Source: Bacteroidota bacterium
GTDB lineage: Bacteria; Bacteroidota; Bacteroidia; Sphingobacteriales; Sphingobacteriaceae
Assembly (NCBI GenBank): GCA_013287375.1
Contig: JABDDX010000001.1
Span: 26,684 to 90,683 of the forward strand
DNA length: 64,000 nucleotides
Reading direction: 5' to 3'
Shown here: in pieces, positions 9,404-40,223 of the stretch
Numbering within the stretch: position 1 is the first letter of the stretch
Layout of the letters: each line of letters begins with the position of its first letter
Position numbers and translations under genes: made by a program
The notes under the pieces: model-generated
Told to the model about the DNA's origin: nothing
The model's input: only the letters and a program-made list of their open reading frames with translations
The model's database searches: none

Positions 9404-12400
9404 TTAAAAAGTGACATCAACTCCCGCTAAAAATGTGCGCACAGCAGGGTAGGTGCCATAGTCAATTCCCTGTTTAGTATTGTCGTTGTCGTAAAAGTTT
9501 ACTTCCGGATCTAACCCGCTGTATTTGGTTATGGTTAATAGGTTTTGGCCCGATATATAGATCCTTAATTTCTTAGCTCCAATTTTTGAAGCAAGGTTGT
9601 TGGTAAACGTGTAGCCTAATGATGCATTTTTAAGTTTTAAGTATGATCCGTTTTCTATATAACGGTCGGTTACCTGTGGCACCGGCGAGTCCGTAGCGCG
9701 TGCAACTGTACCATTTGGATTTGTCGGGCTCCATCTGTTTAATAAAGTGGCTGAGGCGTTTTGGGTAAGTGTTGGGCGTTCTAAAGTTTGCTGCAACAGG
9801 TTGAATATTTTATTGCCGTATGATCCCTGGAAGAATACTGAAAGATCAAACTGGTTGTAAGAAAACGTATTGGTGATACTACCTGTAAACTTAGGTTGGG
9901 CGCTGCCGAGGCTGTGTTTATCGGCTGTGGTAATTACCCCGTCATGGTTATAATCAACATATTTGGTATCACCTACTTTTTGTGGTACGCCATTTAAAAG
10001 CGGTACGCCTTTAGCAATATCAGCAGCGGTTAATAAGCCCTGGGTTGAGTATCCCCAAAAAGTACCAACCGGCGAACCGACTTGTACAATTACCGGTGAT
10101 ACCTGCCCCGTTGGTGCTACCGGAAAATAACTGCTAACACCCGGGCCCAGGCTTAATACCTTGTTACGGTTTTCGGCAAACTCTATATTAGTTTTCCACG
10201 AAAAGTGATCTGTTTTTACGTTATCAGTATTGATGCCTAGTTCAATACCTTTATTTTCAACACTACCTACGTTTTCTAACTCACTTGCATAGCCTGAGTA
10301 TAATGGCAATGGTACATTAAGTAAAAGATCGGTTGTTTTTTTGTAATAAGCGTCGAACGTTAGGTTAACCCGGCTATTAAATAAACCAAGATCAAGGCCG
10401 GCATCATATTGTGTAGTAGTTTCCCATTTAAGGTTTGGGTTATCTATTTGTACTGGTGATATACCGGTTACCAATTTGCTGCCAAAATAATAATTGGTTG
10501 GTGCTAATGCGGCTAATGAGCTATATGGCGGTACCTCTGAGTTACCAGTTTGCCCAGCACTTACTCTTAGTTTTAAACTGCTGATGTCCTGTGCCAGTGG
10601 TTTAAAAAAATCGTTCCTGTCAATGTTCCATGAAAAACCTGCTGATGGGAAATAGCCCCATTTATTGTTGGCGCCTAATTTGGATGAACCATCAGCCCGT
10701 GCAGAAACAGTTAAATTATAAATGTGCAGATAAGAGTAGTTAACCCTCGCCAAATAAGAATCTAAAGCCTGGCTGGCAAAACTTGATGTTGGCAAATTGG
10801 CCACACCTGCATAAGAAAGATTATTGTAAGAGGTTAAATCATTCGGAAATTTTTGTGCTGATGCTGTTGACGATGAAAAACGAGTGTATTGAGTGGTATA
10901 ACCCGCCAGTATGTTTAAAAAGTTGGTGTTGTTAAAGGTATGATCATAAGTAAGCGTGTTCTCATTTAACCAGCTTAACTCATTACCATTTCCTATCGAT
11001 GCGTAACCTTGATCGGCATAGCCACCGGAGGTGTTCGATGGCGCATAGTAATCCTGAACGGTATTTAATATATCAACGCCTGCGGTTACCTTTAAGGTAA
11101 GGTCGGTTAATAACTTATATTCACCGGCAACATTTCCTAATACACGTGTTAATGTGGTAGTGTTGGTTGTTTCGGTGATGTCCTGTAATGGGTTAGTTGG
11201 TGTGGGAATGTAGGGACTATTGGTATAGTAGCTGCCATCTGGATTTGTTATTGGCGACGTCGGTGGGGTTAGTAATAAGGTTGCAAAAGCATTGCTAAAG
11301 TTAATGCTGTTGTATGCACTGCCTACAAGCTTGTTTTCTATCGACTGACTACCAAAAACGTTGGTTGATATTTTAAACTTATCGGTTACGTTTTTTTCAT
11401 AATTAACGCGTGCAGAATACCTTTTGAACCCGGTATTTAAAATGGTACCCTCCTGATTAAAATAATTACCTGAAACCAGGTAACGGGATTTTTCATCACC
11501 GCCGGATATAGACAACTCTCCGTTATACTCAGGTGCATTCCTAAGCGCGGCATTTTGCCAGTTTGATCCGGTACCTAAAGCAGCTAATTGTGCCGGGGTG
11601 TAAGTTGGTGCAACACCATCGCTTAAGTTTATATCATTTACTAATGATCCCCATTGTGTGGCATTTAAAAGGTCGAGTTTTTTAGCGATGGTCTGATCGC
11701 CAAAATAGCTGCTGAAGTTAACATTGTTGGTACCCTTCTTTCCTTTTTTGGTGGTGATGATAACCACACCATTGGCGCCATGCGAGCCATAAATAGCGGT
11801 TGCCGAAGCATCCTTTAATACTTCGATGGATTCAATATCACTCGGGTTGATGGTAGATAACGCGTTTACACTGGTGCCGTTTGAACCAACATTCGCATAG
11901 TCGTTATCATTATAAATAATAAAACCATCTATTACATAAAGCGGAGCATTACCAAAAGAAATAGAGTTACCGCCGCGCACCCTGATGGTAGCGCTACTGC
12001 CCGGCTGCCCGGAATTTTGTGTAACAGCTACGCCAGATACCGCACCTTGCAACAAATTATCAAATGAGGCGGCAGGCTGATTTAAGATGTTTTTGGGTAC
12101 TGAGCCGATAGCGCCTGTTAAATCGCTTTTCTTCTGTGTACCGTAACCTACTACAACTACATCATTCAGTTGGGCAATGTTTTCGGCAAGTTGTATATTA
12201 ACCGGCGTGCCGTTGGCAACAACTTCTTTTGTTTTATAGCCAATAAAGCTTACTACTAAAGTGTAAGGCAATTTCTGACCGGTAACAAATATAAAGTGGC
12301 CATTTGAGCCTGTAGTTACCTCATGCGTAACGTTTTTTATACGTAGGGTAACACCTGCAATTGGTTGCCTGGTAACGCTATCAACAACGGTACCTTCAAT

Positions 12401-12517
12401 CCTGGAGTTAATAACGGGTACATCTTTTTGCGCGAAGGCAGAGAAAGGTATAATTAAGAATAAAAGGGCTTTTAAAAACTTATTTAGTACGTGTTTTGCA
12501 TGGATATATATTTCCAT
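9404..12517 (-). CDS. SusC/RagA-family TonB-linked outer-membrane protein
   Basis: CarboxypepD_reg-like N-term, plug domain, VVVGYGTQKKSDLTGAI, SATAIYGSHGANGVVIITTKKGK. Confidence 0.97.
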   Translation of the reverse strand: MEIYIHAKHVLNKFLKALLFLIIPFSAFAQKDVPVINSRIEGTVVDSVTRQPIAGVTLRIKNVTHEVTTGSNGHFIFVTGQKLPYTLVVSFIGYKTKEVVANGTPVNIQLAENIAQLNDVVVVGYGTQKKSDLTGAIGSVPKNILNQPAASFDNLLQGAVSGVAVTQNSGQPGSSATIRVRGGNSISFGNAPLYVIDGFIIYNDNDYANVGSNGTSVNALSTINPSDIESIEVLKDASATAIYGSHGANGVVIITTKKGKKGTNNVNFSSYFGDQTIAKKLDLLNATQWGSLVNDINLSDGVAPTYTPAQLAALGTGSNWQNAALRNAPEYNGELSISGGDEKSRYLVSGNYFNQEGTILNTGFKRYSARVNYEKNVTDKFKISTNVFGSQSIENKLVGSAYNSINFSNAFATLLLTPPTSPITNPDGSYYTNSPYIPTPTNPLQDITETTNTTTLTRVLGNVAGEYKLLTDLTLKVTAGVDILNTVQDYYAPSNTSGGYADQGYASIGNGNELSWLNENTLTYDHTFNNTNFLNILAGYTTQYTRFSSSTASAQKFPNDLTSYNNLSYAGVANLPTSSFASQALDSYLARVNYSYLHIYNLTVSARADGSSKLGANNKWGYFPSAGFSWNIDRNDFFKPLAQDISSLKLRVSAGQTGNSEVPPYSSLAALAPTNYYFGSKLVTGISPVQIDNPNLKWETTTQYDAGLDLGLFNSRVNLTFDAYYKKTTDLLLNVPLPLYSGYASELENVGSVENKGIELGINTDNVKTDHFSWKTNIEFAENRNKVLSLGPGVSSYFPVAPTGQVSPVIVQVGSPVGTFWGYSTQGLLTAADIAKGVPLLNGVPQKVGDTKYVDYNHDGVITTADKHSLGSAQPKFTGSITNTFSYNQFDLSVFFQGSYGNKIFNLLQQTLERPTLTQNASATLLNRWSPTNPNGTVARATDSPVPQVTDRYIENGSYLKLKNASLGYTFTNNLASKIGAKKLRIYISGQNLLTITKYSGLDPEVNFYDNDNTKQGIDYGTYPAVRTFLAGVDVTF

Positions 12518-12640
12518 ATATTTAAATGTTTTATGTTAATGATTCAATTCGTTCGTAAAACTTTGATGATCAGTGTGTGATTCGCAGTCGTTGCTGATCC
12601 ATCATGTAATTAACCGGCAAGGCTTCCTTGCCGGTTTGTT
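12499..12640. ncRNA. Conserved SusC 5'-leader block; candidate antisense sRNA (plus strand) ending at the terminator-like hairpin
   Basis: ~140 nt nearly identical (reverse complement) to 29739-29880; hairpin ACCGGCAAGG-ctt-CCTTGCCGGT at 12613-12635 followed on the plus strand by TTGTTTTTA. Confidence 0.5.
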
Positions 12641-12769
12641 TTTATAGGTAAATTTAAAGGGCCATTTGTGTTTTTTTTAATTGTAAGGGATATAAACCGC
12701 ACATGACATTGCCTATGCAACTCGCACTCATGTAACAATCAATAAATTTCAAGGTGAAGGTTGATTGTT

Positions 12770-12862
12770 TTAGCAACAACAACACGCACAACACATTCGC
12801 TGTACCGGGGCGATACTCAAAGCGGTTAATGTATTCATGTGAAAATGTAAAAAAGCTTTCAT
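12770..12862 (-). CDS. Cys-rich leader peptide, 30 aa: MKAFLHFHMNTLTALSIAPVQRMCCACCCC*
   Basis: Translated from the minus strand; starts 18 nt after a TATATTCG promoter-like box, upstream of susC. Confidence 0.6.
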   Translation of the reverse strand: MKAFLHFHMNTLTALSIAPVQRMCCACCCC

Positions 12863-12905
12863 TGCGTTTGTTCTACACGGCGAATATATAAAATAATCTA
12901 CATAT

Positions 12906-12922
12906 TCTACTAAATATGTAGA
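12906..12922 (-). promoter_or_regulatory. Operator-like motif TCTAC-TAAATAT-GTAGA (inside a larger IR at 12895-12924), 17 nt upstream of box 12881-12888
   Basis: Same 17-bp architecture as 27207-27223; IR AATCTACATATT/AATATGTAGATT. Confidence 0.65.
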
Positions 12923-26972: not shown

Positions 26973-27032
26973 GTTAAGCCTAAACCCCCGTAGGGGTTAT
27001 ACGTTGGTAGAAAAATAAAACGAAATAAATAC

Positions 27033-27078
27033 CGTGCCGTAGGTACGTGACCCAGCAACGTTGTGTACCTACGGCACG
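27033..27078. repeat. REP-like hairpin CGTGCCGTAGGTAC ... GTACCTACGGCACG
   Basis: 14-bp perfect arms, 18-nt loop. Confidence 0.75.
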
Positions 27079-27206
27079 CCAAATGGTTTAAAATGCTATC
27101 TGCTACCCATATTTTGCTCCTATGGAGCATTGTTGAAATTACATTTACTATAACTTAATGATATTGGGCCTGGCTACCAGTTATAATTTTATTAGATCAA
27201 AAAAAG

Positions 27207-27223
27207 TCTACTAAATTTGTAGA
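27207..27223 (+). promoter_or_regulatory. Operator-like motif TCTAC-TAAATTT-GTAGA, 16 nt upstream of TACATTTG (27240-27247)
   Basis: One base different from the motif at 12906-12922. Confidence 0.7.
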
Positions 27224-27239
27224 GTATTTAAAAAATTAT

Positions 27240-27247
27240 TACATTTG
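27240..27247 (+). promoter_or_regulatory. Bacteroidetes -7 box TACATTTG
   Basis: Matches TAnnTTTG. Confidence 0.7.
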
Positions 27248-27251
27248 TGCC

Positions 27252-27290
27252 ATGATTACGTCCCCAAAAAAATGTTATTGTTGTCTTTAA
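27252..27290 (+). CDS. Cys-rich leader peptide, 12 aa: MITSPKKCYCCL*
   Basis: ATG 5 nt after the -7 box (near-leaderless); 39 nt before the next gene. Confidence 0.55.
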   Translation: MITSPKKCYCCL

Positions 27291-27329
27291 GCCACCCCTC
27301 GCTTACACAATTTCATTTTTTTAAAGCCC

Positions 27330-28343
27330 ATGAATTTTCGATTTAACTTCCTTTTTCTTATTGTACTGATTATTTGCCTTTCTGGCCAGATAGCCTCAGC
27401 GCAATCACCTGTTTATTTAACGTCAGTTAACGAACACCCCAGGCATAGCGGCAATGTTATTGAGGCTGAAATAAAGTTAAATACGAATTTAACCAAGGCA
27501 GAGCAAAGAAAACAGCTCATTACTTACCTGAAAGATGTGGAGACAGGTAATGTCAATTATAATCCGGCGAGGATTAAACGCCTGTATTACCTGGCCAATT
27601 TATTAACCCGGCTAAGGCTTTACCCGCTGGCAATGAAATGCTTTTTTAAAACGATGCAGCCGGAGACTGACAGTCTCGCTACAGCTGATCTTCCTATCAC
27701 TTTAAAAGATGATTCTTTGCTTGAGAAACAAGAAAATTTACTTGGTGCCGATACGGATAAAGAAATCAGCAGTAAGCCCATCAGCAATGAAAAGATCAGC
27801 GAAACATTTGATGATGGTAAAACCGCTATCGCTTATGCGCTGGTTTTTCATGTTAAACAACCTGTTCGCGGCAAACCCAAAATTTTCAAACTGGCTAATA
27901 CGGGTCACACCTTTATTACCCTTATCAAATATAATTCCGACTCTACCTATGCGGCTATTTCCTACGGATTTTACCCTAAAAAGGATAACCCGCTTTCGGC
28001 CACACCGCTTATTCCTTCAACGTCTTCTACATTCAAAGATGACTCGGAACATGCCTGGGATGAGGTTTTGGGTAAATTTATTTCCAAACGTCGTTTTAAT
28101 AAAATATTGGCGCTCACCCGGCAATATCATAACATCGCTTACCATCTTAGTAAAAATAACTGTACCGACTTTGGTTTAAAGGCAGCTGCGCTGGCAGGGC
28201 TCAAGGTTTGGGATACCAAAGGCAGCTGGCCATTGGGTAGTGGTAATAATCCCGGTGTCACCGGGCAAAGCTTGCTCGAAGGCAAGTTTGATAATACCGA
28301 TACCGGCGACAGACAAAATTTATTGATCACCAACAGGAATTAG
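27330..28343 (+). CDS. Secreted protein of unknown function with a C-terminal NlpC/P60-like Cys-containing segment
   Basis: Signal peptide; NTGHTFITL..., YHLSKNNCTDFGLKAAALAGL. Confidence 0.6.
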   Translation: MNFRFNFLFLIVLIICLSGQIASAQSPVYLTSVNEHPRHSGNVIEAEIKLNTNLTKAEQRKQLITYLKDVETGNVNYNPARIKRLYYLANLLTRLRLYPLAMKCFFKTMQPETDSLATADLPITLKDDSLLEKQENLLGADTDKEISSKPISNEKISETFDDGKTAIAYALVFHVKQPVRGKPKIFKLANTGHTFITLIKYNSDSTYAAISYGFYPKKDNPLSATPLIPSTSSTFKDDSEHAWDEVLGKFISKRRFNKILALTRQYHNIAYHLSKNNCTDFGLKAAALAGLKVWDTKGSWPLGSGNNPGVTGQSLLEGKFDNTDTGDRQNLLITNRN

Positions 28344-28385
28344 GTATTTATCCGTTTAGCTTAAATATAACTAATAATAAAACAT

Positions 28386-28562
28386 ATGGAAAATTATAAT
28401 AATTTAAAGGAGCTGATTGCTTTAGCTGATAAAGATGCGGTTGCGTTTTTCGAAAAAGGTAATAGTACAGCCGGAATACGTTTGCGCCGTACACTGCAAC
28501 AAGTTAAAATTTCAGCAACCGCTGTACGCCAGGAAATATCAGAAAAGAAGAAGAGAAAGTAA
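28386..28562 (+). CDS. Histone H1-like small basic protein (58 aa), absent from the ORF track
   Basis: MENYNNLKELIALADKDAVAFFEKGNSTAGIRLRRTLQQVKISATAVRQEISEKKKRK*; resembles Bacteroidetes Hc1-like proteins. Confidence 0.8.
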   Translation: MENYNNLKELIALADKDAVAFFEKGNSTAGIRLRRTLQQVKISATAVRQEISEKKKRK

Positions 28563-28846
28563 TGGATAGCGATTTTTTTGACACCCTTTTTGAAAAACAC
28601 TGGCAACAGGTATACAACTCTGCGTTCAAACGTGTAGCTAATACAGAGACGGCTACGGAAGTAACGCAGGAAGCATTTTTTCAACTATGGTTGAATAAAG
28701 ATCGGGCGAACAAAGAAAATATCTTAGACTTTCTACTGGCTGCTGTACACGACGAAATATTCAAACTAATAGAAAAAGAGTGCCTCGATATTGTTAATCC
28801 ACCTGGTAAAATATTTGAGCATCTGGAGTTCCCCGGAGCTAATTAA
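28562..28846 (+). CDS. Sigma-70 region-2-only ECF-like protein (94 aa)
   Basis: FFDTLFEKHWQQVYNSAFKRVANTETATEVTQEAFFQLWLNK; no region 4; start overlaps the H1-like stop (TAATG). Confidence 0.65.
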   Translation: MDSDFFDTLFEKHWQQVYNSAFKRVANTETATEVTQEAFFQLWLNKDRANKENILDFLLAAVHDEIFKLIEKECLDIVNPPGKIFEHLEFPGAN

Positions 28847-28964
28847 TAGCGCAATTTTAAATAGAATAAATAAATATATATGTTTATTGAGAAAAACGAT
28901 TTAGTAATTAACTTTTTTGTAGCTGTATATCAGTGTTTTGTAATGGTTGAGGAATAGTAATTGC

Positions 28965-29002
28965 AAATATTCTATTAAATCTATAGATTTAATAGAATAT
29001 TT
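28965..29002. promoter_or_regulatory. 38-bp perfect palindrome AAATATTCTATTAAATCTATAGATTTAATAGAATATTT containing two overlapping TCTAT-N7-ATAGA sites
   Basis: 17-mers at 28971-28987 and 28980-28996; the first lies 17 nt upstream of TATATTTG (29005-29012). Confidence 0.8.
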
Positions 29003-29017
29003 TATATATTTGTATCA

Positions 29018-29123
29018 GGTAATTGAAAATTTTTATTTGACTGACCTCATAATAATTGTCTTCTCATCTAGGTTTATAATTGGTTGTAAAGAGTTCCTGC
29101 CCATCAGGAGCTCTTTCTTTTTT
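29018..29123 (+). ncRNA. Candidate small RNA (~105 nt) under the palindrome promoter
   Basis: TATATTTG box at 29005-29012 and terminator 29091-29123; no convincing conserved ORF. Confidence 0.5.
29091..29123 (+). terminator. Intrinsic terminator GAGTTCCTG-cccat-CAGGAGCTC-TTTCTTTTTT
   Basis: 9-bp stem with one G-U pair plus U-rich tract. Confidence 0.85.
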
Positions 29124-29167
29124 ATGTTGATATAAGAAAGTACTCCTTAAAATCTGTTTAAAACTAT

Positions 29168-29297
29168 CGTCACTTGCGAGCGAAGCATGGCAATCCCCGA
29201 CTATATAGATGTAAAACTATGTTATTGCGAGGAACGAAGCAATCGCACGCAGAAACCCACCTTGCAAAGTTCGCGATTGCTTCGTTCCTCGCAATGA
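29168..29297. repeat. REP-like palindromic element (ATTGCGAGGAACGAAGCAATCGC ... GCGATTGCTTCGTTCCTCGCAAT)
   Basis: Inner arms 23 bp perfect. Confidence 0.8.
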
Positions 29298-29391
29298 CAC
29301 TTGATTTTTTGTGTTTATATATAAAAGCAACATTCAATCATTTTTAAACAACTTCTTGGATGTCTTAAATCACCAAAAATATAAAAATGGG

Positions 29392-29446
29392 GGGCCCTGT
29401 GCGATACCTTTCCCTAGAATAGGGAAAGGAGGAGGATAGGGTAAAA
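29392..29446 (+). repeat. Dispersed repeat copy B (GGGCCCTGTGCGATACCTTTCCCTAGAATAGGGAAAGGAGGAGGATAGGGTAAAA)
   Basis: See copy A; upstream flank is also partly conserved between A and B. Confidence 0.85.
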
Positions 29447-29455
29447 GCTTAATTC

Positions 29456-29497
29456 TTTTATATTCTATAATTCCTATATATATTATAGAATATAAAA
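29456..29497 (+). promoter_or_regulatory. Inverted repeat TTTTATATTCTATAA ... TTATAGAATATAAAA, containing CCTAT-N7-ATAGA at 29473-29489, 16 nt upstream of TATATTTG (29506-29513)
   Basis: 15-bp perfect arms; same spacing to the box as at 27207. Confidence 0.7.
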
Positions 29498-29505
29498 AGA
29501 AATTA

Positions 29506-29513
29506 TATATTTG
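29506..29513 (+). promoter_or_regulatory. Bacteroidetes -7 box TATATTTG
   Basis: Matches TAnnTTTG. Confidence 0.75.
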
Positions 29514-29531
29514 CGGCGGAAAAACAAACAA

Positions 29532-29606
29532 ATGACAACATTTTTACGTCACCCCCTTTCTTTTGTTCATGTTGCTCAGCAGAACTGCTGTACCTGTTGT
29601 TGTTAA
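29532..29606 (+). CDS. Cys-rich leader peptide, 24 aa: MTTFLRHPLSFVHVAQQNCCTCCC*
   Basis: Translated directly; 18 nt after the -7 box, same spacing as the peptide at 12770-12862. Confidence 0.65.
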   Translation: MTTFLRHPLSFVHVAQQNCCTCCC

Positions 29607-29738
29607 TTAAACGACACACCCCCCACTGACCTTTAACGAATTGGTATCTCAGGTATTAGGCAATCCTCATACCGGTGAACCTGCAATATTAAAACCCCTA
29701 ATTAATTTATACTTATGAAATTATAACAAGCAGAAAAG

Positions 29739-29880
29739 CAAACCGGCAAGGAAGCCTTGCCGGTGAATTACCTGATGGATCAGCAACGACTGCGAATCAC
29801 ACACTGATCATCAAAGTTTTACGAACGAATTGAATCATTAACATAAAACACTTATATATATGGAAATATATATCCATACT
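29739..29880. ncRNA. Conserved SusC 5'-leader block; candidate antisense sRNA (minus strand)
   Basis: Nearly identical to the 12499-12640 reverse complement; hairpin 29742-29764 followed on the minus strand by TTGCTTTTCTG. Confidence 0.5.
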
Positions 29881-32800
29881 AAACGTTTTCTTTCCGGGAT
29901 TATTGGCGTCCTGTTATTTCTAGCCATTCCTGGTACGGTCTTCGGCCAAACAGAAGTTCCGATCATTAACTCCAGGATCGACGGTATTGTTACCGATAGC
30001 ACCACCAGGCAACCCATAACCGGCGTAGTATTACGAATTAAAGGCGTAACGCACGAGGTAGTTACCGGTTCCGACGGCCGTTTTAGTTTTGTTACCGGGC
30101 AAAAATTGCCTTATACACTAGTGGTTAGTTTCATTGGGTATAAAACCAAAGAGGTGTATGCCACGGGCAGCCCGGTCAATATCCAATTATCAGATAAGGT
30201 ATCACAACTAAACGATGTAGTTATTGTAGGTTATGGTACACAAAAGCGAAGCGATATTACAGGTGCTATATCCACGGTACCCAAATCAAATTTAAGCCAG
30301 GTTTCCTCATCGGTTGATAACTTATTAAGAGGTGCCGCTCCGGGGGTGCAGGTTACCCAAAGTTCTGGTCAGCCGGGTGCATCCGCCAGTGTCAGGATAC
30401 GTGGTGGTAACTCCATTACCGGCGGAAACGAGCCGCTATATGTTATTGACGGATTTCCGGTATATAACGATAATACCACTATCAGCAGCAGTGCAGGTAC
30501 AGGCGGCGCTGTAAATGCATTATCAACCATAAATCCTTCGGATATTGAATCGATAGAGGTGTTAAAGGATGCATCAGCAACCGCGATCTATGGTTCCAGG
30601 GGCGCAAATGGCGTTATCATCATAACCACTAAAAAGGGTAAAAGGGGAACAAACGATGTTGCTTTTCAAACTTATTATGGCCTGCAAAAAATAAGCAAGG
30701 AAGTTCCGCTTCTAGATGCCACACAGTGGGCTGAACTACGGAATGATATATTGGCCAGTTCTAACCAGGCCCCATCATTTACATCTGCCCAAATTGCCGC
30801 ATTTGGCAAGGGAACTAACTGGCAGGATGCCGCTTTTAGAACAGCCCCGGTAGAAAATGATGAGTTAACCTTTTCTGGCGGCGATGAAAAATCACGTTAT
30901 AATATCTCCAGCAATTATTTCAACCAGGAGGGCATTTTACTGAACACCGATTTTAAAAGGTATTCTTTAAGGTTTAATTACGATAGGGACATTTCAAAAA
31001 ATTTCCACGTAGGGATTAACGCGACTACCAGTTATTCTACATCACAGGGTGCCGCATCTAACATTGCTTCCAACAGCTTAAACAGTCCTAATATTATCAC
31101 CAATATATTAACTACTCCACCGGTACTTCCGGTAAAGGATGCTAATGGCAATTACGTATTGAATACCTATTCAACTACGCCATCCAATCCAATTCAGGAT
31201 TTGCTATCCATTGTTAATCAAACCAAAGTGAACAGATCATTAGGTAACCTGTTTGCCGAATATACACTGGCCCCGGGTTTAAAAGCGAAGGTTAGCCTTG
31301 GTGCCGATCTGATCAACTCAAAGTCTAATTTTTACGCGCCGTCCTATACCGGCGATGGTTATTCAACCCTGGGTTACGCGACTGTAGGAGCAGCATCATC
31401 AAACAGCTGGCTGGATGAAAATACACTTACTTACAGCAAAACTATTAATAATGATCATGAGCTGAATATATTGGCTGGTTACACCACACAATATTTAAGC
31501 AACGAATCCCTGACCGCCGGGTCAAAAGATTTTGTGAGTAATTTAACCAGCTACAATAGTTTACAAAGTGGTTCACAAATTCTAACACCAACCTCAAACG
31601 CCTATAGCTGGGCATTGGATTCTTACCTGGCCAGGATCAACTATTCTTATCTGCATAAATATAACTTCACAGTATCAGGCAGGGCCGATGGATCATCAAG
31701 ATTTGGTGCCGGCAATAAATGGGGTTATTTCCCATCAGCCGGATTTTCATGGAATGCAGGTGAAGAAGATTTCATAAAAAGTGCTCCTGTTGTAAGTAAC
31801 CTTAAACTCAGGTTAAGCGCAGGTGAAACCGGAAACCAGGAAATAGGCGAATACCAATCATTAGCGCTATTCAGCCCGTTCAATTACGACTTTAATAATA
31901 CACAAGTAGTAGGGCTGGCGCAAACACAGTTAGCTAACGCTGATTTAAAATGGGAGAAAACCGCGCAATACGATGGGGGTTTTGATTTAGGATTATTGGA
32001 TAACAAGATAAACTTTGTTTTTGACGCTTATTACAAAAAAACTACTAACCTATTACTGGCTGTACCGGTTCCTTTATCGTCAGGATATTCTCTGTCCCTG
32101 CAAAATATTGGTAGTGTAGAAAATAAAGGGATTGAGATAGGGATAAACACCGAGAATATTAATAGCGATGGATTTGTTTGGAAAACAGCTTTAGTGTATT
32201 CTGAAAATCGAAATAAAGTACTAAGCCTCGGGAATAACGAAACCTCATTTTTTCCAACTATACCGGGTACTACTTTAGGTGTGTTACAACCTGAAATTAT
32301 AAAAGTAGGATTGCCTTTGGGCACGTTCTGGGGATATAAAACTGTTGGCATATTCCAAAATGCTGCTCAAATAGCAGAATATCCGACATTGAATAGTAAG
32401 GCTAATACTAAGCCCGGCGATGTCCGTTACCAGGATACCAATAACGATGGTGTAATAACCACTGCTGATAAAACAAACCTCGGTAGTGTTCAGCCTAAAT
32501 TTACCGGGAGCTTAACCAACACGTTCACCTATAAAGGGTTTGATCTGGTTGTGTTTCTGCAAGGATCATATGGTGGCAAAATTTACAATGCATTACGCCA
32601 GCAACTCGAAATCACCAATCTTTCTCAAAATGCCTGGGGCGATGTTGCTAACCGTTGGACACCGACAAACCCAAGCAATACCATTCCACGCGCATCAAAT
32701 AACCCGGTGGCCCAAATGTCAAGTCAGTTTGTGGAAGACGCTTCTTATCTGCGCTTAAAAAACCTGGTATTAGGCTACACATTTACCAACGCGGTGTTGA

Positions 32801-32985
32801 CAAAAATCCATGCAAAACAGATCAGGCTTTATGTATCTGCCCAAAACCTGGTAACCTGGACAAAATATACCGGTTACGATCCTGAGGTAAGCAGTTTCGA
32901 GCAGAACAACACTGCACAAGGCATCGACTATGGCGCTTACCCTAACTACAAAACCTATTTGCTTGGTTTAAACGTCACCTTTTAA
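29860..32985 (+). CDS. SusC/RagA-family TonB-linked outer-membrane protein
   Basis: Paralogous to 9404-12517 from N-term to C-term. Confidence 0.97.
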   Translation: MEIYIHTKRFLSGIIGVLLFLAIPGTVFGQTEVPIINSRIDGIVTDSTTRQPITGVVLRIKGVTHEVVTGSDGRFSFVTGQKLPYTLVVSFIGYKTKEVYATGSPVNIQLSDKVSQLNDVVIVGYGTQKRSDITGAISTVPKSNLSQVSSSVDNLLRGAAPGVQVTQSSGQPGASASVRIRGGNSITGGNEPLYVIDGFPVYNDNTTISSSAGTGGAVNALSTINPSDIESIEVLKDASATAIYGSRGANGVIIITTKKGKRGTNDVAFQTYYGLQKISKEVPLLDATQWAELRNDILASSNQAPSFTSAQIAAFGKGTNWQDAAFRTAPVENDELTFSGGDEKSRYNISSNYFNQEGILLNTDFKRYSLRFNYDRDISKNFHVGINATTSYSTSQGAASNIASNSLNSPNIITNILTTPPVLPVKDANGNYVLNTYSTTPSNPIQDLLSIVNQTKVNRSLGNLFAEYTLAPGLKAKVSLGADLINSKSNFYAPSYTGDGYSTLGYATVGAASSNSWLDENTLTYSKTINNDHELNILAGYTTQYLSNESLTAGSKDFVSNLTSYNSLQSGSQILTPTSNAYSWALDSYLARINYSYLHKYNFTVSGRADGSSRFGAGNKWGYFPSAGFSWNAGEEDFIKSAPVVSNLKLRLSAGETGNQEIGEYQSLALFSPFNYDFNNTQVVGLAQTQLANADLKWEKTAQYDGGFDLGLLDNKINFVFDAYYKKTTNLLLAVPVPLSSGYSLSLQNIGSVENKGIEIGINTENINSDGFVWKTALVYSENRNKVLSLGNNETSFFPTIPGTTLGVLQPEIIKVGLPLGTFWGYKTVGIFQNAAQIAEYPTLNSKANTKPGDVRYQDTNNDGVITTADKTNLGSVQPKFTGSLTNTFTYKGFDLVVFLQGSYGGKIYNALRQQLEITNLSQNAWGDVANRWTPTNPSNTIPRASNNPVAQMSSQFVEDASYLRLKNLVLGYTFTNAVLTKIHAKQIRLYVSAQNLVTWTKYTGYDPEVSSFEQNNTAQGIDYGAYPNYKTYLLGLNVTF

Positions 32986-34468: not shown

Positions 34469-35440
34469 ATGATACATTTTATTGAAGCAATCGCTAAAAG
34501 TATAACCACCTGGGGGTTCCCTGCTTTAATCCTGTTACTCGGTGTAGTTGAATTTTCACTGGGCCTTTATGAAAAAAAGTGGACAAAAAACGAGAGCCTG
34601 CTTAATATTTTCAGCTTTGTTTTCCCACCAATTATTCTTTATCCGGTTATAGCATACCTGGGCATTAAATTTTTACCGGATGTAATACCACAATATAAAA
34701 ACATATTCGCATGGGTACCTTTTATATGGGGCTTTATTACTATAGCTATTGCTGATGATTTAACCCAATACTGGTATCACCGGCTGCATCACCAAATACC
34801 ATTTTTATGGCGTTTCCATCGTACGCACCACTCGGCGCCGTACATGGGTATGGCAATGGCCAGCAGGCAAAATATCATTTACACCTTCTTTTTTTCGCAG
34901 ATATACCTTACCACCATTTTGATATATCTTGGGTTAGGCTACCCTGCACTATTTGTTAGCGCGATAAAAATACTCATCACCACTTTTGCTCACTCAAAAA
35001 TTAAGTGGGATAAGCCTTTTTATAAATATAAAATACTGCACCCGGCAGCATGGGTATTGGAAAGGCTCATATCAACCCCGGCAACGCATCATGCCCATCA
35101 CTCAAGTTCAACAGATGATGGGGTGGGTTATTACAAAGGCAACTTTGGCAATATGTTTTTTCTGTGGGATGTGATTTTCGATACCGCGCATATATCAAGG
35201 CAATACCCCGAGGCATATGGCATCTCGCATTACGAGGGCGATGAGTGGTATGCTCAACTATTCTGGCCCATATTTAAATCCAGCAGGGAAGGCAGCGAAC
35301 TGGCTAAAAGCGGACCCCCTGTACGCGAAGATATACCAGTAAAAAAAACATCGTTGGATGACTATAAGATCAAGCCGATAAAATCACAACGATTGATCTA
35401 TTCCCTTACCAAAGAATCTCTTTCAAACCCCAATAGATAA
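34469..35440 (+). CDS. Sterol desaturase / fatty acid hydroxylase superfamily protein
   Basis: HRLHH, HRTHH, HHAHH; paralogous to 6556-7515. Confidence 0.93.
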   Translation: MIHFIEAIAKSITTWGFPALILLLGVVEFSLGLYEKKWTKNESLLNIFSFVFPPIILYPVIAYLGIKFLPDVIPQYKNIFAWVPFIWGFITIAIADDLTQYWYHRLHHQIPFLWRFHRTHHSAPYMGMAMASRQNIIYTFFFSQIYLTTILIYLGLGYPALFVSAIKILITTFAHSKIKWDKPFYKYKILHPAAWVLERLISTPATHHAHHSSSTDDGVGYYKGNFGNMFFLWDVIFDTAHISRQYPEAYGISHYEGDEWYAQLFWPIFKSSREGSELAKSGPPVREDIPVKKTSLDDYKIKPIKSQRLIYSLTKESLSNPNR

Positions 35441-35533
35441 AGTATAAATCCTACCTACAAAGTACCCTTCGCATTTACCAGCGATTTAACTAAAGTAACA
35501 TTTGAAACGCATTAAAAATTAAACCTCACGAAA

Positions 35534-37435
35534 ATGAAAAAAACAATTGTCGCATTCCTGCTGATTACGGGATCCGTATCGCAGTTAGCCAGGGCCCAAA
35601 ACATCACGCAGCAACAGCAGCCATTTAAAGGTGTTATTGGCAGAACTTTGGCGGAGTCCAAAGAATCATGGACAGATCAGATCAAAGCCCCGAAAGGCGC
35701 GCCTAACGTAGTTTGGATAATTCTTGACGACGTTGGTTTTGGCGCGTCAAGCACCTTTGGCGGCGTAATAAACACGCCCACATTTGATAGTTTGGCAAAC
35801 AATGGTTTACGTTATACCAACTTTCATACCGCCGCGATATGCGCGCCAACCAGGGCTGCCTTGCTTACCGGCCGTAATCACCATTACGTACATATGGGCG
35901 GGTTTGCGCATACAATCATGTCAGCAGGCTTCCCGGGTTGGGATGGTCGCATACCATCAGACAAGGGAACCGTTGCCGAAATTTTACGCGAGAACGGCTA
36001 CAACACCTTTGCCGTTGGTAAATATGGTTTAACCCCCGACGAAGATGCTACAGATGCCGGTCCGTTTGACCGCTGGCCAAGTGGCAAAGGCTTTGATCAC
36101 TTCTTCGGTTTTCTGGGTTCACAAACCGACCAGTATAAACCAGATCTGGTTGAAGACAATGCTCATGTTAAGCCTGACGGCAGGCACTTAAATGAGCAAA
36201 TAACCGATAAAGCCATCTCATACATAACCCGTCAGCATCAGGTAGCGCCAAACAAACCGTTCTTCCTGTACTATGCGCCGGGAGCAACTCATGCCCCGCA
36301 CCAGGTATCAAAAGAATGGAGCGATTTATATAAAGGTAAATTTGATGGCGGCTGGGACGTGTTCAGGGAGCAGGTTTTTGAAAGACAAAAAAAACTGGGT
36401 ATTATTCCGGCTAACGCGGTATTGCCTGCCCGTAATCCCGACATAAAAGCATGGAACACTTTAAGCCCAGACGAAAAGAAACTTTATTCCCGCTTTATGG
36501 AAGTGTATGCGGGCTATTTAACCTATACAGATCATGAGGTTGGGCGTTTAATTGATTACCTTAAACAAAGTGGCCAGTTAGATAACACGCTGGTATTTGT
36601 GATCATTGGCGATAATGGCGCCAGTAAAGAAGGTACCCTTAACGGTGATATTGATCGCCCGCTTTTTGGTAAACCACTTAACGAGCAGGAAAATATCCAA
36701 CATAATTTAGATCGCATAGGCGAAATAGGTACTCCGGAAGCTACACAAGGTAACTACCCATTAGGTTGGGCGCAGGCCGCGAACACCCCTTTTAAATACT
36801 GGAAACAGGATGCCAATGCCGAAGGCGGTACACGCAACCCGCTGATTGTTTTTTACCCGAAAGGGATTAAAGATAAAGGCGGCATCCGCACCCAATATGG
36901 GCATGTTAATGATGTGTTGCCTACAACTTTAGAGTTTTTAGGTATTACACCGCCGGAATACATCAGGGGTATCAAACAAGATACATTGCAGGGCACGTCG
37001 CTGGTTTATTCTTTTGATCATCCTGATGCACCTTCGCGTCATCGTGTACAGTACTATTATATTTTCGGATCAAGATCTATTTATAAAGATGGCTGGAAAG
37101 CTGAGGTTTACCATCACCCAAATACAATTGATGAAGGAAACTATGTAGGAGTAGGAGGTGGTAATGCACCAAAACCTTCAAGTGGTTTTGACAACGAGGT
37201 TTGGGAACTATATGACCTGAAAACCGATTTTAATGAACGTATCGATCTGTCAAAAAAATATCCGGAGAAATTAAAAGAGTTACAGGACCTATTTGATGAG
37301 CAGGCTAAAATAAACAACATTTATCCTTTTATAGATTGGGACGATGTGCTTAAACTAAGGATTCATAAAAAAGCGGGTGTTGCCCAAACATTAAACATAG
37401 GCACCGCTCCCGCTGCCGAAACACCAAACAAATAA
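35534..37435 (+). CDS. Arylsulfatase (S1-type, secreted)
   Basis: CxPxR formylglycine motif (AAICAPTRAALLTGR), PNVVWIILDDVGFG. Confidence 0.94.
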   Translation: MKKTIVAFLLITGSVSQLARAQNITQQQQPFKGVIGRTLAESKESWTDQIKAPKGAPNVVWIILDDVGFGASSTFGGVINTPTFDSLANNGLRYTNFHTAAICAPTRAALLTGRNHHYVHMGGFAHTIMSAGFPGWDGRIPSDKGTVAEILRENGYNTFAVGKYGLTPDEDATDAGPFDRWPSGKGFDHFFGFLGSQTDQYKPDLVEDNAHVKPDGRHLNEQITDKAISYITRQHQVAPNKPFFLYYAPGATHAPHQVSKEWSDLYKGKFDGGWDVFREQVFERQKKLGIIPANAVLPARNPDIKAWNTLSPDEKKLYSRFMEVYAGYLTYTDHEVGRLIDYLKQSGQLDNTLVFVIIGDNGASKEGTLNGDIDRPLFGKPLNEQENIQHNLDRIGEIGTPEATQGNYPLGWAQAANTPFKYWKQDANAEGGTRNPLIVFYPKGIKDKGGIRTQYGHVNDVLPTTLEFLGITPPEYIRGIKQDTLQGTSLVYSFDHPDAPSRHRVQYYYIFGSRSIYKDGWKAEVYHHPNTIDEGNYVGVGGGNAPKPSSGFDNEVWELYDLKTDFNERIDLSKKYPEKLKELQDLFDEQAKINNIYPFIDWDDVLKLRIHKKAGVAQTLNIGTAPAAETPNK

Positions 37436-37441
37436 TTAATA

Positions 37442-39067
37442 ATGAAAAGAATAGGAATTGCATTTACAATGCTGCTGGCCGTTATTGGCTGGCAGCATGC
37501 AAATGCCCAAAGCAAGAAACCCAACATCATACTTATTGTGGTAGATGATATGGGCTACTCCGATCTGGGATCTTACGGCTCAGAAATACACACACCAAAC
37601 CTTGACAAGCTTGCAGCGCAAGGCTTACGCTTAAAAGAGTTTTATAACAATGCAATATGCGCGCCAACCCGGTCATCCATATTAACCGGGCAGGATCAGC
37701 ATAAAGCAGGAGTGGGGTATTTTGATGTTAATTTGGGTTTGCCTGCTTACCAGGGTTACCTTAATAGAGAGTCTGTTACCCTTGCCGAAGTATTAAAACA
37801 AAATGGTTACAGCACCCTGATGTCGGGCAAATGGCATGTGGGTAATGATAGCCTTGCCTGGCCCAACCAACGTGGATTTGAAAAATTCTTCGGCATAATA
37901 GGCGGCGCGGCAAATTACTTTAATACCAATTATATGCCTTTGGGCGGAGGTAAATATCCTGTTATAATCGAAGAGAACAACAAGCGCTGGCATAAAGCCG
38001 ACGATAGTTATTACATGACTGAGGAAATTGGCGACCATGCGGTGAAGTTTCTGGATGAGCAAAGCAGAACCAATAAACCATTCTTTTTATACCTGGCTTT
38101 TAACGCTCCGCATTGGCCGCTACAGGCTTTGCCGGAGGATATTGCCAAATACAAAGGCAGATACGATATCGGCTGGGATTCATTACGTAGGGAACGTATA
38201 AAAAAGCAAGTGGAATTGGGCATACGCGACCCAAAACAAACGGTGGCGCTGCGTGATGCCGATGTGCCTAACTGGGATAACTTAACCTACGATGAACAGC
38301 AATTATGGAAAGCCAAAATGGAAGTATACGCCGCGATGGTTGATCGTATGGATCAGAATGTAGGTAAGGTGCTGGATAAGTTAAAGGAACTAAAAAAGGA
38401 TGATAACACATTAATTGTGTTTATATCCGACAACGGTGCACCTGCTGAAGATGTGGCCCATGGCAAAGAGCATGCAGCCAGGAACCTTGGGCCGGTAGGT
38501 ACTTCCGGCTCTTTTGAGGCTCAGGGCAAAAACTGGTCGTTTGTTTCCAACTCTCCTTTGCGCTCATTTAAAGGCGCTTTATATGAAGGCGGTATGAGCT
38601 CTCCGTTTATTGCCTGGTTTCCGGGTAAAATAAAACCGAATACTATAGAAAAAGGCACGGCTCATTTGATCGATCTTGCGCCTACTTTTTACGATATTGC
38701 GGGCGCTAAATATCCGTCTACCTATCAGGGTCACAAAATTAACCCGCTAATTGGGCAAAGCCTTACCGGTTTGCTCTTTAAAGGTGAACCGATCAATCGC
38801 GACAAGCCACTTTTCTGGGAGTTGTGGGGTAACCGCGCAATGCGCGAAGGAAAATGGAAGTTAGTATCTGCCTTCCCTGCAAATCATTGGGAACTATATG
38901 ATTTGGACGTAGACCGCGGTGAAACTAATAACCTGGCAGCTAAATATCCTGACGTGGTTAAAAAGCTTTCGCTGGAATACGTGACCTGGGTAAATGAAAA
39001 TAATGTGGTGCTGGATTTTAACTTGATCAATCCAAGATCTAATTTTGACCTGAAGATCGGCCAATAA
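37442..39067 (+). CDS. Arylsulfatase (S1-type, secreted)
   Basis: CxPxR motif (NAICAPTRSSILTGQ), KPNIILIVVDDMGYSDLGSYG. Confidence 0.95.
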   Translation: MKRIGIAFTMLLAVIGWQHANAQSKKPNIILIVVDDMGYSDLGSYGSEIHTPNLDKLAAQGLRLKEFYNNAICAPTRSSILTGQDQHKAGVGYFDVNLGLPAYQGYLNRESVTLAEVLKQNGYSTLMSGKWHVGNDSLAWPNQRGFEKFFGIIGGAANYFNTNYMPLGGGKYPVIIEENNKRWHKADDSYYMTEEIGDHAVKFLDEQSRTNKPFFLYLAFNAPHWPLQALPEDIAKYKGRYDIGWDSLRRERIKKQVELGIRDPKQTVALRDADVPNWDNLTYDEQQLWKAKMEVYAAMVDRMDQNVGKVLDKLKELKKDDNTLIVFISDNGAPAEDVAHGKEHAARNLGPVGTSGSFEAQGKNWSFVSNSPLRSFKGALYEGGMSSPFIAWFPGKIKPNTIEKGTAHLIDLAPTFYDIAGAKYPSTYQGHKINPLIGQSLTGLLFKGEPINRDKPLFWELWGNRAMREGKWKLVSAFPANHWELYDLDVDRGETNNLAAKYPDVVKKLSLEYVTWVNENNVVLDFNLINPRSNFDLKIGQ

Positions 39068-39074
39068 AAATAAA

Positions 39075-40223
39075 ATGATGGTGATTAAAAAAACTTTAAT
39101 ACTTAGTCTTTTTCTTAGCGGGATGCTATGGTCTGCTTGTAAGCAAAAACAGTCGTCTTCGGTTGTAGCCATTAAGCCTCCAACTGTGCTCAAAAAAGCC
39201 ATTTGCTGTGAGTCTGGTATTCCTAAACGTTTTGCATCTCTGGAGACACATCAAATTGGTGTCCCTGATTTAAATCACGATAACGCCTCTCATAAAGGAA
39301 TGATCTGGATAAAAACAGGGACTTTTTTAATGGGGGCCGATAATAAACAGGCAGCGCCAGACGAATACCCAAAGCATAAAGTTTCCGTTGATGGTTTTTG
39401 GATGGATGCTACGGAGGTAACTAACGCCCAGTTTGCCAAATTTGTAAAGGCAACAGGTTATATAACCACTGCAGAACACAAGCCGGATTGGAACGAGCTG
39501 AAGAAACAGTTGCCGCCCGGAACGCCAAAACCCGATGACAGCCTACTAGTTGCAGCCTCGTTGGTTTTTGATCCGCCTAAACACGCTGTTGATTTAAATG
39601 ATTACAGCCAGTGGTGGGCGTGGAAAAAAGGCGCTAATTGGCGTCATCCGCAGGGACCGGGCAGCAGTATTAAAGGGAAAGATAATTACCCGGTGGTGCA
39701 AATTTCATGGTACGATGCGGTTGCCTATTCTAAATGGGCAGGTAAGCGTTTACCTACAGAAGCAGAGTGGGAGTGGGCGGCACGCGGCGGCTTGCAAAAT
39801 AATATATACCCATGGGGTAATGAGGCCATTGATAAGGGCAAACCCAAAGCAAATACATGGGAAGGGCATTTCCCGGATCAGAACACGCTCCGCGATAAAT
39901 TTTATGGTCTTGCGCCGGTAGCTTCGTTTCCTGCAAACGGTTATGGACTGTATGATATGGCCGGCAATGTGTGGGAGTGGTGTGCCGATAACTATGATAG
40001 TAATTACTACACTACCATAGCCAATAACCCGGGTATAAAAAACCCGCAAGGCCCACTCAAAAGTTATGATCCGGATGAACCTTATGCCAAAAAGCGGGTG
40101 ATACGTGGTGGCTCGTTTCTGTGTAATAATAGCTATTGCTCAGGCTTTAGAGTAGCCCGGCGAATGAAAAGCTCCGAAGACAGTAGCCTGGAACATTTAG
40201 GATTTAGATGTGTGGCGAATTAA
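39075..40223 (+). CDS. Formylglycine-generating enzyme (SUMF1/FGE family), lipoprotein
   Basis: Two conserved Cys (RGGSFLCNNSYCSGFRVARR), GNVWEWCAD, HLGFRCV. Confidence 0.94.
   Translation: MMVIKKTLILSLFLSGMLWSACKQKQSSSVVAIKPPTVLKKAICCESGIPKRFASLETHQIGVPDLNHDNASHKGMIWIKTGTFLMGADNKQAAPDEYPKHKVSVDGFWMDATEVTNAQFAKFVKATGYITTAEHKPDWNELKKQLPPGTPKPDDSLLVAASLVFDPPKHAVDLNDYSQWWAWKKGANWRHPQGPGSSIKGKDNYPVVQISWYDAVAYSKWAGKRLPTEAEWEWAARGGLQNNIYPWGNEAIDKGKPKANTWEGHFPDQNTLRDKFYGLAPVASFPANGYGLYDMAGNVWEWCADNYDSNYYTTIANNPGIKNPQGPLKSYDPDEPYAKKRVIRGGSFLCNNSYCSGFRVARRMKSSEDSSLEHLGFRCVAN

Follow-up and report, generated by a model that had tools for sequence, protein, structure and literature searches.

Organization of the 27252-28343 locus

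The window analyzed here is a stretch of 64,000 nucleotides from a draft MAG of the genus Mucilaginibacter (3.1 Mb, 58% complete). The locus under study comprises a promoter with an overlapping palindromic operator, a 12-codon mini-ORF with cysteines as residues 8, 10 and 11, a short spacer, and a gene for a 337-aa protein with an apparent N-terminal signal peptide (Table 1). Upon re-reading of the sequence and its translation, the coordinates, peptide and cysteine positions given for the mini-ORF in the first-pass annotation proved correct, as did the 39-nt distance between its stop codon and the main ATG at 27330. The promoter box claimed to lie just before the mini-ORF was also found: four bases separate it from the ATG, the A of which is the fifth base past the box. 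The operator overlaps the -33 region of the same promoter. In Flavobacterium, the -7 box occupies positions -12 to -5 (PMC6847099, PMC9723704), and thus the same geometry places the predicted +1 at the A of the ATG, so that the mRNA would be strictly leaderless; the earlier proposal of a near-leaderless mRNA agrees with this published geometry. A scan of the region 27000-30000 against Rfam yielded no match at gathering scores.

Table 1. Features of the mini-ORF locus and related sites in the window
Feature	Position	Strand	Remarks
Palindromic operator CTACTAAATTTGTAG	27208..27222	.	contains -33-like TTTG at 27216-27219
-7 promoter box TACATTTG	27240..27247	+	TAnnTTTG consensus (PMC6847099, PMC9723704)
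Cys-rich mini-ORF MITSPKKCYCCL	27252..27290	+	predicted TSS 27252; kept in orthologue leaders
Hairpin 5' arm AAAAAAATG	27266..27274	+	within mini-ORF
Spacer, mini-ORF stop to main ATG	27291..27329	+	39 nt, C-rich, G-poor, without terminator
Hairpin 3' arm CATTTTTTT	27314..27322	+	8-16 nt before main ATG
Putatively controlled gene, 337-aa secreted protein	27330..28343	+	conserved GHTxITLIK (His), then NCTDF (Cys); weak PPPDE/Peptidase_C97 signature
Related Cys mini-ORF MKAFLHFHMNTLTALSIAPVQRMCCACCCC, before SusC 9404-12517	12770..12862	-	operator and box 12881-12921
Related Cys mini-ORF MTTFLRHPLSFVHVAQQNCCTCCC, before SusC 29860-32985	29532..29606	+	operator and box 29474-29513
Fourth copy of operator and box	28972..29012	+	followed by short terminator-ended transcript without mini-ORF

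The NlpC-like C-terminus formerly ascribed to the 337-aa protein was not confirmed, as no Pfam or NCBIfam family, NlpC/P60 included, scored above cut-off. Its C-terminal domain, with invariant residues His193 (GHTxITLIK) and Cys278 (NCTDF), weakly matches PPPDE/Peptidase_C97 instead. This weak match was observed in all 43 aligned members of the family (the best at 1.1e-4, the window protein at 0.011, below the curated cut-off), and a weak TPR_1 match in 23 of them. The order of the conserved residues, His before Cys, would fit a permuted papain fold rather than NlpC/P60. The AlphaFold model of the protein has a mean pLDDT of 78; neither a sequence search of the PDB nor a fold search with this model returned relatives. 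The conserved neighbours, a divergent short-chain dehydrogenase followed by a dioxygenase-like gene (both named by eye from sequence), gave no functional hint.

Conservation of the cysteine mini-ORF in orthologous leaders

To assess conservation without selecting for cysteine, we took each main gene, identified the operator and box ahead of it, and read the ORF opened by the first ATG past the box. The set comprised 27 orthologue loci of Mucilaginibacter and Pedobacter in which operator and box were found. The first-pass annotation had tied its reading to the presence of a cysteine mini-ORF before orthologues of the gene: an ORF of 12-36 aa with at least three cysteines was found in 23 of these 27 loci, eight more orthologues lie behind an upstream poly-Cys mini-ORF, and one clade lacks the element. 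The cysteine run is in frame in 23 of the 24 loci that have an ATG ahead of the main gene, a proportion not corrected for phylogeny. The exceptions among the 27 loci are L166 and L217, without an ATG ahead of the main gene, L199, with the main ATG directly 3' of the box, and L174, where operator, box and ORF are present and the ORF contains no cysteine. The mini-ORF peptides diverge and share little except the cysteine run close to the stop codon, and the spacers between mini-ORF and main gene range from 30 to 107 nt.

Several orthologues show variations of this arrangement. In six (L169, L175, L196, L203, L210 and L224), the poly-Cys mini-ORF stands not before the orthologue but before an AhpC/TSA-like gene that the orthologue follows, the AhpC/TSA identity being based on a profile match for L169 and L196 and on sequence clustering for the other four; in L168 and L218, the poly-Cys mini-ORF lies about 0.8-1.1 kb upstream of the orthologue. 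In L202, L207, L211, L212 and L219, the cysteine mini-ORF is accompanied by a terminator, GCCTTTC...GAAAGGC with a U-run, and in the Pedobacter locus L183 the mini-ORF extends into the start of the main gene. No trace of the cysteine mini-ORF element was seen in further orthologues, among them the clade whose 5' region differs, and therefore the link between mini-ORF and gene is widespread and not universal. In this clade (L023-L026, L028, L029 and L032), another conserved 5' segment, similar to TTATTGTTGCTGATAGG and followed by a C-run and CGCGTT, takes the place of the mini-ORF.

These data bear on two alternative explanations. Short ORFs are common, and box-ATG-Cys patterns considered genome-wide without the operator turned out to be mainly noise, so that a chance ORF downstream of a promoter had to be considered. 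This explanation is already contradicted by the in-frame conservation in orthologues; in addition, the pattern box-N(2-12)-ATG-N(9-39)-Cys-X-Cys-Cys has three matches in the 3.1-Mb host MAG, and only the one at 27252-27290 forms an open in-frame ORF. We regard the probability of a chance ORF as negligible. Alternatively, the peptide itself could act as a metal- or thiol-binding micropeptide or as a signal, given that CxCC and CCCC motifs are able to bind metals. This option appears very improbable, since the peptides vary in length (12-36 aa) and at every non-cysteine residue but stay adjacent to the promoter, and since sister leaders are attenuators with terminators, as described below.

The operator and the putative sulfur regulon

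The combined pattern of operator and box, CTAY-N7-RTAGA followed after 16-17 nt by TANNTTYG, has four mismatch-free copies in the window. They precede the mini-ORF at 27252, the cysteine mini-ORFs of two SusC genes, and one short terminator-ended region. The likeness of the promoter and operator to those of the two SusC leaders, proposed in the first-pass annotation, thus holds, as all of them share CTAY-N7-RTAG 16-17 nt before the box. Across 91 genomes of the genus, the pattern of operator and box was found at 41 sites and the reversed pattern at 3, and the common palindromic operator occurs at promoters of sulfur genes, including SAM riboswitch operons. The examined loci with operator and box are chiefly of three kinds: orthologues of 27330-28343 with a poly-Cys mini-ORF, cysteine-desulfurase-like genes downstream of a SAM riboswitch (RF00162 was present in 12 of 12 operator loci of this type scanned), and other genes with poly-Cys mini-ORFs, including a SusC-like and a sulfatase-like gene. 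The occurrence of the same operator before SAM riboswitch operons gives the sulfur theme independent evidence in addition to the cysteine codons.

Sulfite reductase loci, identified by profile match, provide a second line of evidence. In about 22 of 30 relatives (L227-L256), a mini-ORF with at least two cysteines begins 0-14 nt past the box, and nearly all of these mini-ORFs are followed by a GC stem and a U-run about 30 nt before the gene. Judged by this layout, a cysteine mini-ORF with an intrinsic terminator before sulfite reductase, a gene of cysteine synthesis, is a textbook cysteine attenuator in the genus. The earlier assignment of the window leader to a sulfur-linked regulon is therefore supported both by the operator before SAM riboswitch and cysteine desulfurase operons and by the terminator-bearing cysteine mini-ORFs before sulfite reductase. 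Given the shared operator and the sulfite reductase leaders, the mini-ORF at 27252 is best read as a cysteine-responsive attenuator of a sulfur regulon. On the reverse strand of host contig C42 (L289), an operator-like site CTACTAAATTAATAG and a box TATATTTG are followed by MSYNKTIISSRYFLGLQGFKKCMMCMCCCC with a stop codon and an AhpC/TSA-family gene; a peroxiredoxin gene of contig C42 with an operator-like site ahead of it and no mini-ORF was set aside as a possible chance occurrence.

A candidate regulator is suggested by genes of the Rrf2 family, which were found in all eight complete relatives searched. Several genomes have them immediately ahead of sulfite reductase, and L131 has one that is followed by the operator, the box, the mini-ORF MKTTNVLLKSKMMLIAPKACIMPCCCN and SusC. 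The search of the host MAG, which is 58% complete, returned no Rrf2 gene. The sulfur regulon is probably under the control of a putative Rrf2/CymR-type regulator. The CymR/Rrf2 cysteine regulons of Firmicutes (PMC2869319) likewise tie Rrf2-family regulators to sulfur genes and use a palindromic AT-rich operator at the promoter, whereas here the putative operator is combined with cysteine mini-ORFs or SAM riboswitches.

Other operator sites of the window show features of their own. The two SusC leaders (12518-12760 on the minus strand and 29607-29859) have a long near-identical 3' part after divergent cysteine mini-ORFs; this part consists of a AAACCGGCAAGGAAGCCTTGCCGGT hairpin followed by GATCAG...CTGATC, is similar in L131, and possibly forms the output half of the SusC attenuators. 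A SusC/SusD locus continues at 34469-40223 with a fatty-acid hydroxylase, two sulfatases and a sulfatase-modifying enzyme (FGE), a gene content suggesting that a sulfated substrate is imported and desulfated by the products of genes behind a cysteine mini-ORF. The transcript predicted at 28972-29124 has no ATG mini-ORF and ends in a terminator-like hairpin with a T-run (about 29090-29124), and is a candidate sulfur-regulated small RNA. Its 3' segment at about 29053-29128 is repeated across the genus: 60 of 61 genomes contain it, mostly as 2-6 copies each, and it was absent from the 39 other genomes of the class.

Leader hairpin and proposed mechanism of regulation

Five leaders of one type, the window leader and those of four relatives, share a hairpin in which mini-ORF codons 5-8 are paired to a U-run 8-16 nt before the main ATG, and the inner pairs are formed by the cysteine codons and the stop region. 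In the alignment of these five leaders, 92% of the cells are paired, compared with 41-55% when the partners are shifted against each other; in two pairs both bases vary, the covariation being suggestive at most when set against shuffles (48/500). The window spacer complements the mini-ORF more than shuffled spacers do (p=0.003), and the combined p value over 22 terminator-less leaders is about 1e-6, with kinship ignored. The computed cost of freeing positions -20 to +6 at the main ATG is 9.0 kcal/mol and falls to 1.6 kcal/mol with a ribosome over the cysteine codons, a gain matched by 1 of 100 shuffled spacers. For the majority of the other leader types, covering the cysteine codons yields a small computed gain or none; thus, one translational mechanism does not cover all members, and those leaders may work differently. 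Pairing of the cysteine tract alone with an ACAACA-like element, considered as a general switch, was weak (combined p 0.003, with 6 of 22 leaders below 0.1). A sequestering hairpin fits the observation that initiation in Flavobacterium is tuned by structure close to the start codon (PMC6847099).

Based on these features, we consider it probable that the leader is a two-layer cysteine switch, in which a repressor acts at the operator and ribosome stalling on the leaderless cysteine mini-ORF frees the main start. In the first layer, a sulfur-responsive repressor, likeliest an Rrf2/CymR-like protein, would bind CTAC-N7-GTAG over the -33 region and permit transcription upon sulfur shortage. In the second layer, transcription would start on the A of the mini-ORF's own ATG, which a ribosome would use directly as a leaderless start. 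With ample Cys-tRNA, the ribosome would finish the mini-ORF and leave, and the hairpin between codons 5-8 and the U-rich stretch would re-form and mask the site at which ribosomes enter the main gene; with too little Cys-tRNA, the ribosome would stall at Cys codons 8, 10 and 11, the hairpin would be held open, and the main gene would be translated. The computed support comprises the conservation of the mini-ORF, its cysteine run and its frame, an operator common to SAM riboswitch, SusC and AhpC-like operons, the lack of a terminator, and a conserved hairpin. The transcription start site, the identity of the repressor, the ribosome stalling and the direction of control are those that we infer, as is translational attenuation as the preferred reading of the window leader.

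Two other modes of action deserve comparison with the two-layer switch. In the first, transcriptional attenuation, the stalled ribosome would block premature termination, possibly Rho-dependent in a C-rich, G-poor spacer, rather than open a start site. Such a mode accords with the intrinsic terminators that follow the cysteine mini-ORFs of sulfite reductase and of five orthologues (L202, L207, L211, L212 and L219), with the C-rich spacer of the window, and with the proposal of Rho for terminator-less mycobacterial cys leaders (PMC1262725). For the window leader we hold it rather unlikely: no terminator-like site was found in 27150-27450, 39 nt of spacer leave little room for a Rho site, and the conserved hairpin extends just to the region where translation of the main gene begins. 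In the second mode, coupling or re-initiation, ribosomes from the leaderless mini-ORF would feed the main ATG 39 nt further on, and cysteine shortage would lower expression. We give little credence to this mode: the leaderless start, the short spacer, the L183 mini-ORF reaching into the main gene start and the lack of Shine-Dalgarno sequences in Bacteroidota (PMC6847099) speak for it, whereas the main start is sequestered by the conserved hairpin, the terminator-bearing sister leaders imply induction on shortage, and the spacer lengths vary widely.

Beyond the window leader, Bacteroidota could have a cysteine regulon in which a single operator feeds three RNA sensors: a SAM riboswitch, a cysteine mini-ORF followed by a terminator, and a leaderless cysteine mini-ORF whose translational hairpin, on opening, would make a U-rich entry site accessible without any Shine-Dalgarno sequence. 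In this scheme, the same gene would have swapped terminator and translational forms in evolution. We consider the arguments for and against this broader scheme to be evenly balanced.

Comparison with known systems

In mycobacteria, poly-Cys leaderless short ORFs are cysteine-responsive attenuators (Shell 2015, PMC4633059; Canestrari 2020, as cited in PMC9031893). Like the window leader, for which a leaderless start is predicted, they combine a leaderless short ORF with adjacent cysteine codons near the stop, often without an intrinsic terminator, and the retention of the cysteine run near the stop while the rest of the ORF diverges was observed here as well. The mycobacterial type is located upstream of sulfur genes, which here holds for the sulfite reductase relatives, whereas the window leader would control a secreted protein and related leaders SusC transporters. 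The window leader further differs in its phylum, its unrelated sequence, the lack of a Shine-Dalgarno sequence to sequester, the palindromic operator over the promoter, and the hairpin made from the mini-ORF itself. By analogy, the window element is one that would work like the mycobacterial type; nothing points to common descent.

Leaders with cysteine runs have also been predicted in Actinobacteria (PMC1262725), and in Rhodobacterales a cysteine uORF with a terminator precedes cysS (uORFC-8-2 motif, PMC8632094). Attenuators of the trp type share the stalling at codons of the regulated amino acid proposed here and have a terminator between mini-ORF and gene, which is present in the sister leaders and absent from the window leader. 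Within Bacteroidota, leader sORFs in 5' regions were suggested to attenuate in F. psychrophilum (PMC9723704) and B. thetaiotaomicron (PMC7366714); in the available text of these two reports, they are not poly-Cys, have no cysteine operator and belong to other gene families. A search limited to open-access papers returned no report of cysteine mini-ORF attenuation in Bacteroidota, which is no proof of absence.

Biological implications

The leader at 27252-27290 suggests that poly-Cys attenuation is not restricted to Actinobacteria. The mRNAs of this phylum lack Shine-Dalgarno sequences, and the leader offers a natural example, directly open to testing, of how a leaderless mini-ORF may control translation there. 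As gene callers overlook such mini-ORFs, the combination of the operator, TAnnTTTG and a cysteine run provides a ready signature for genome mining. For the organism, the proposed switch would tie an unannotated family of secreted proteins and SusC transport operons to the supply of cysteine.
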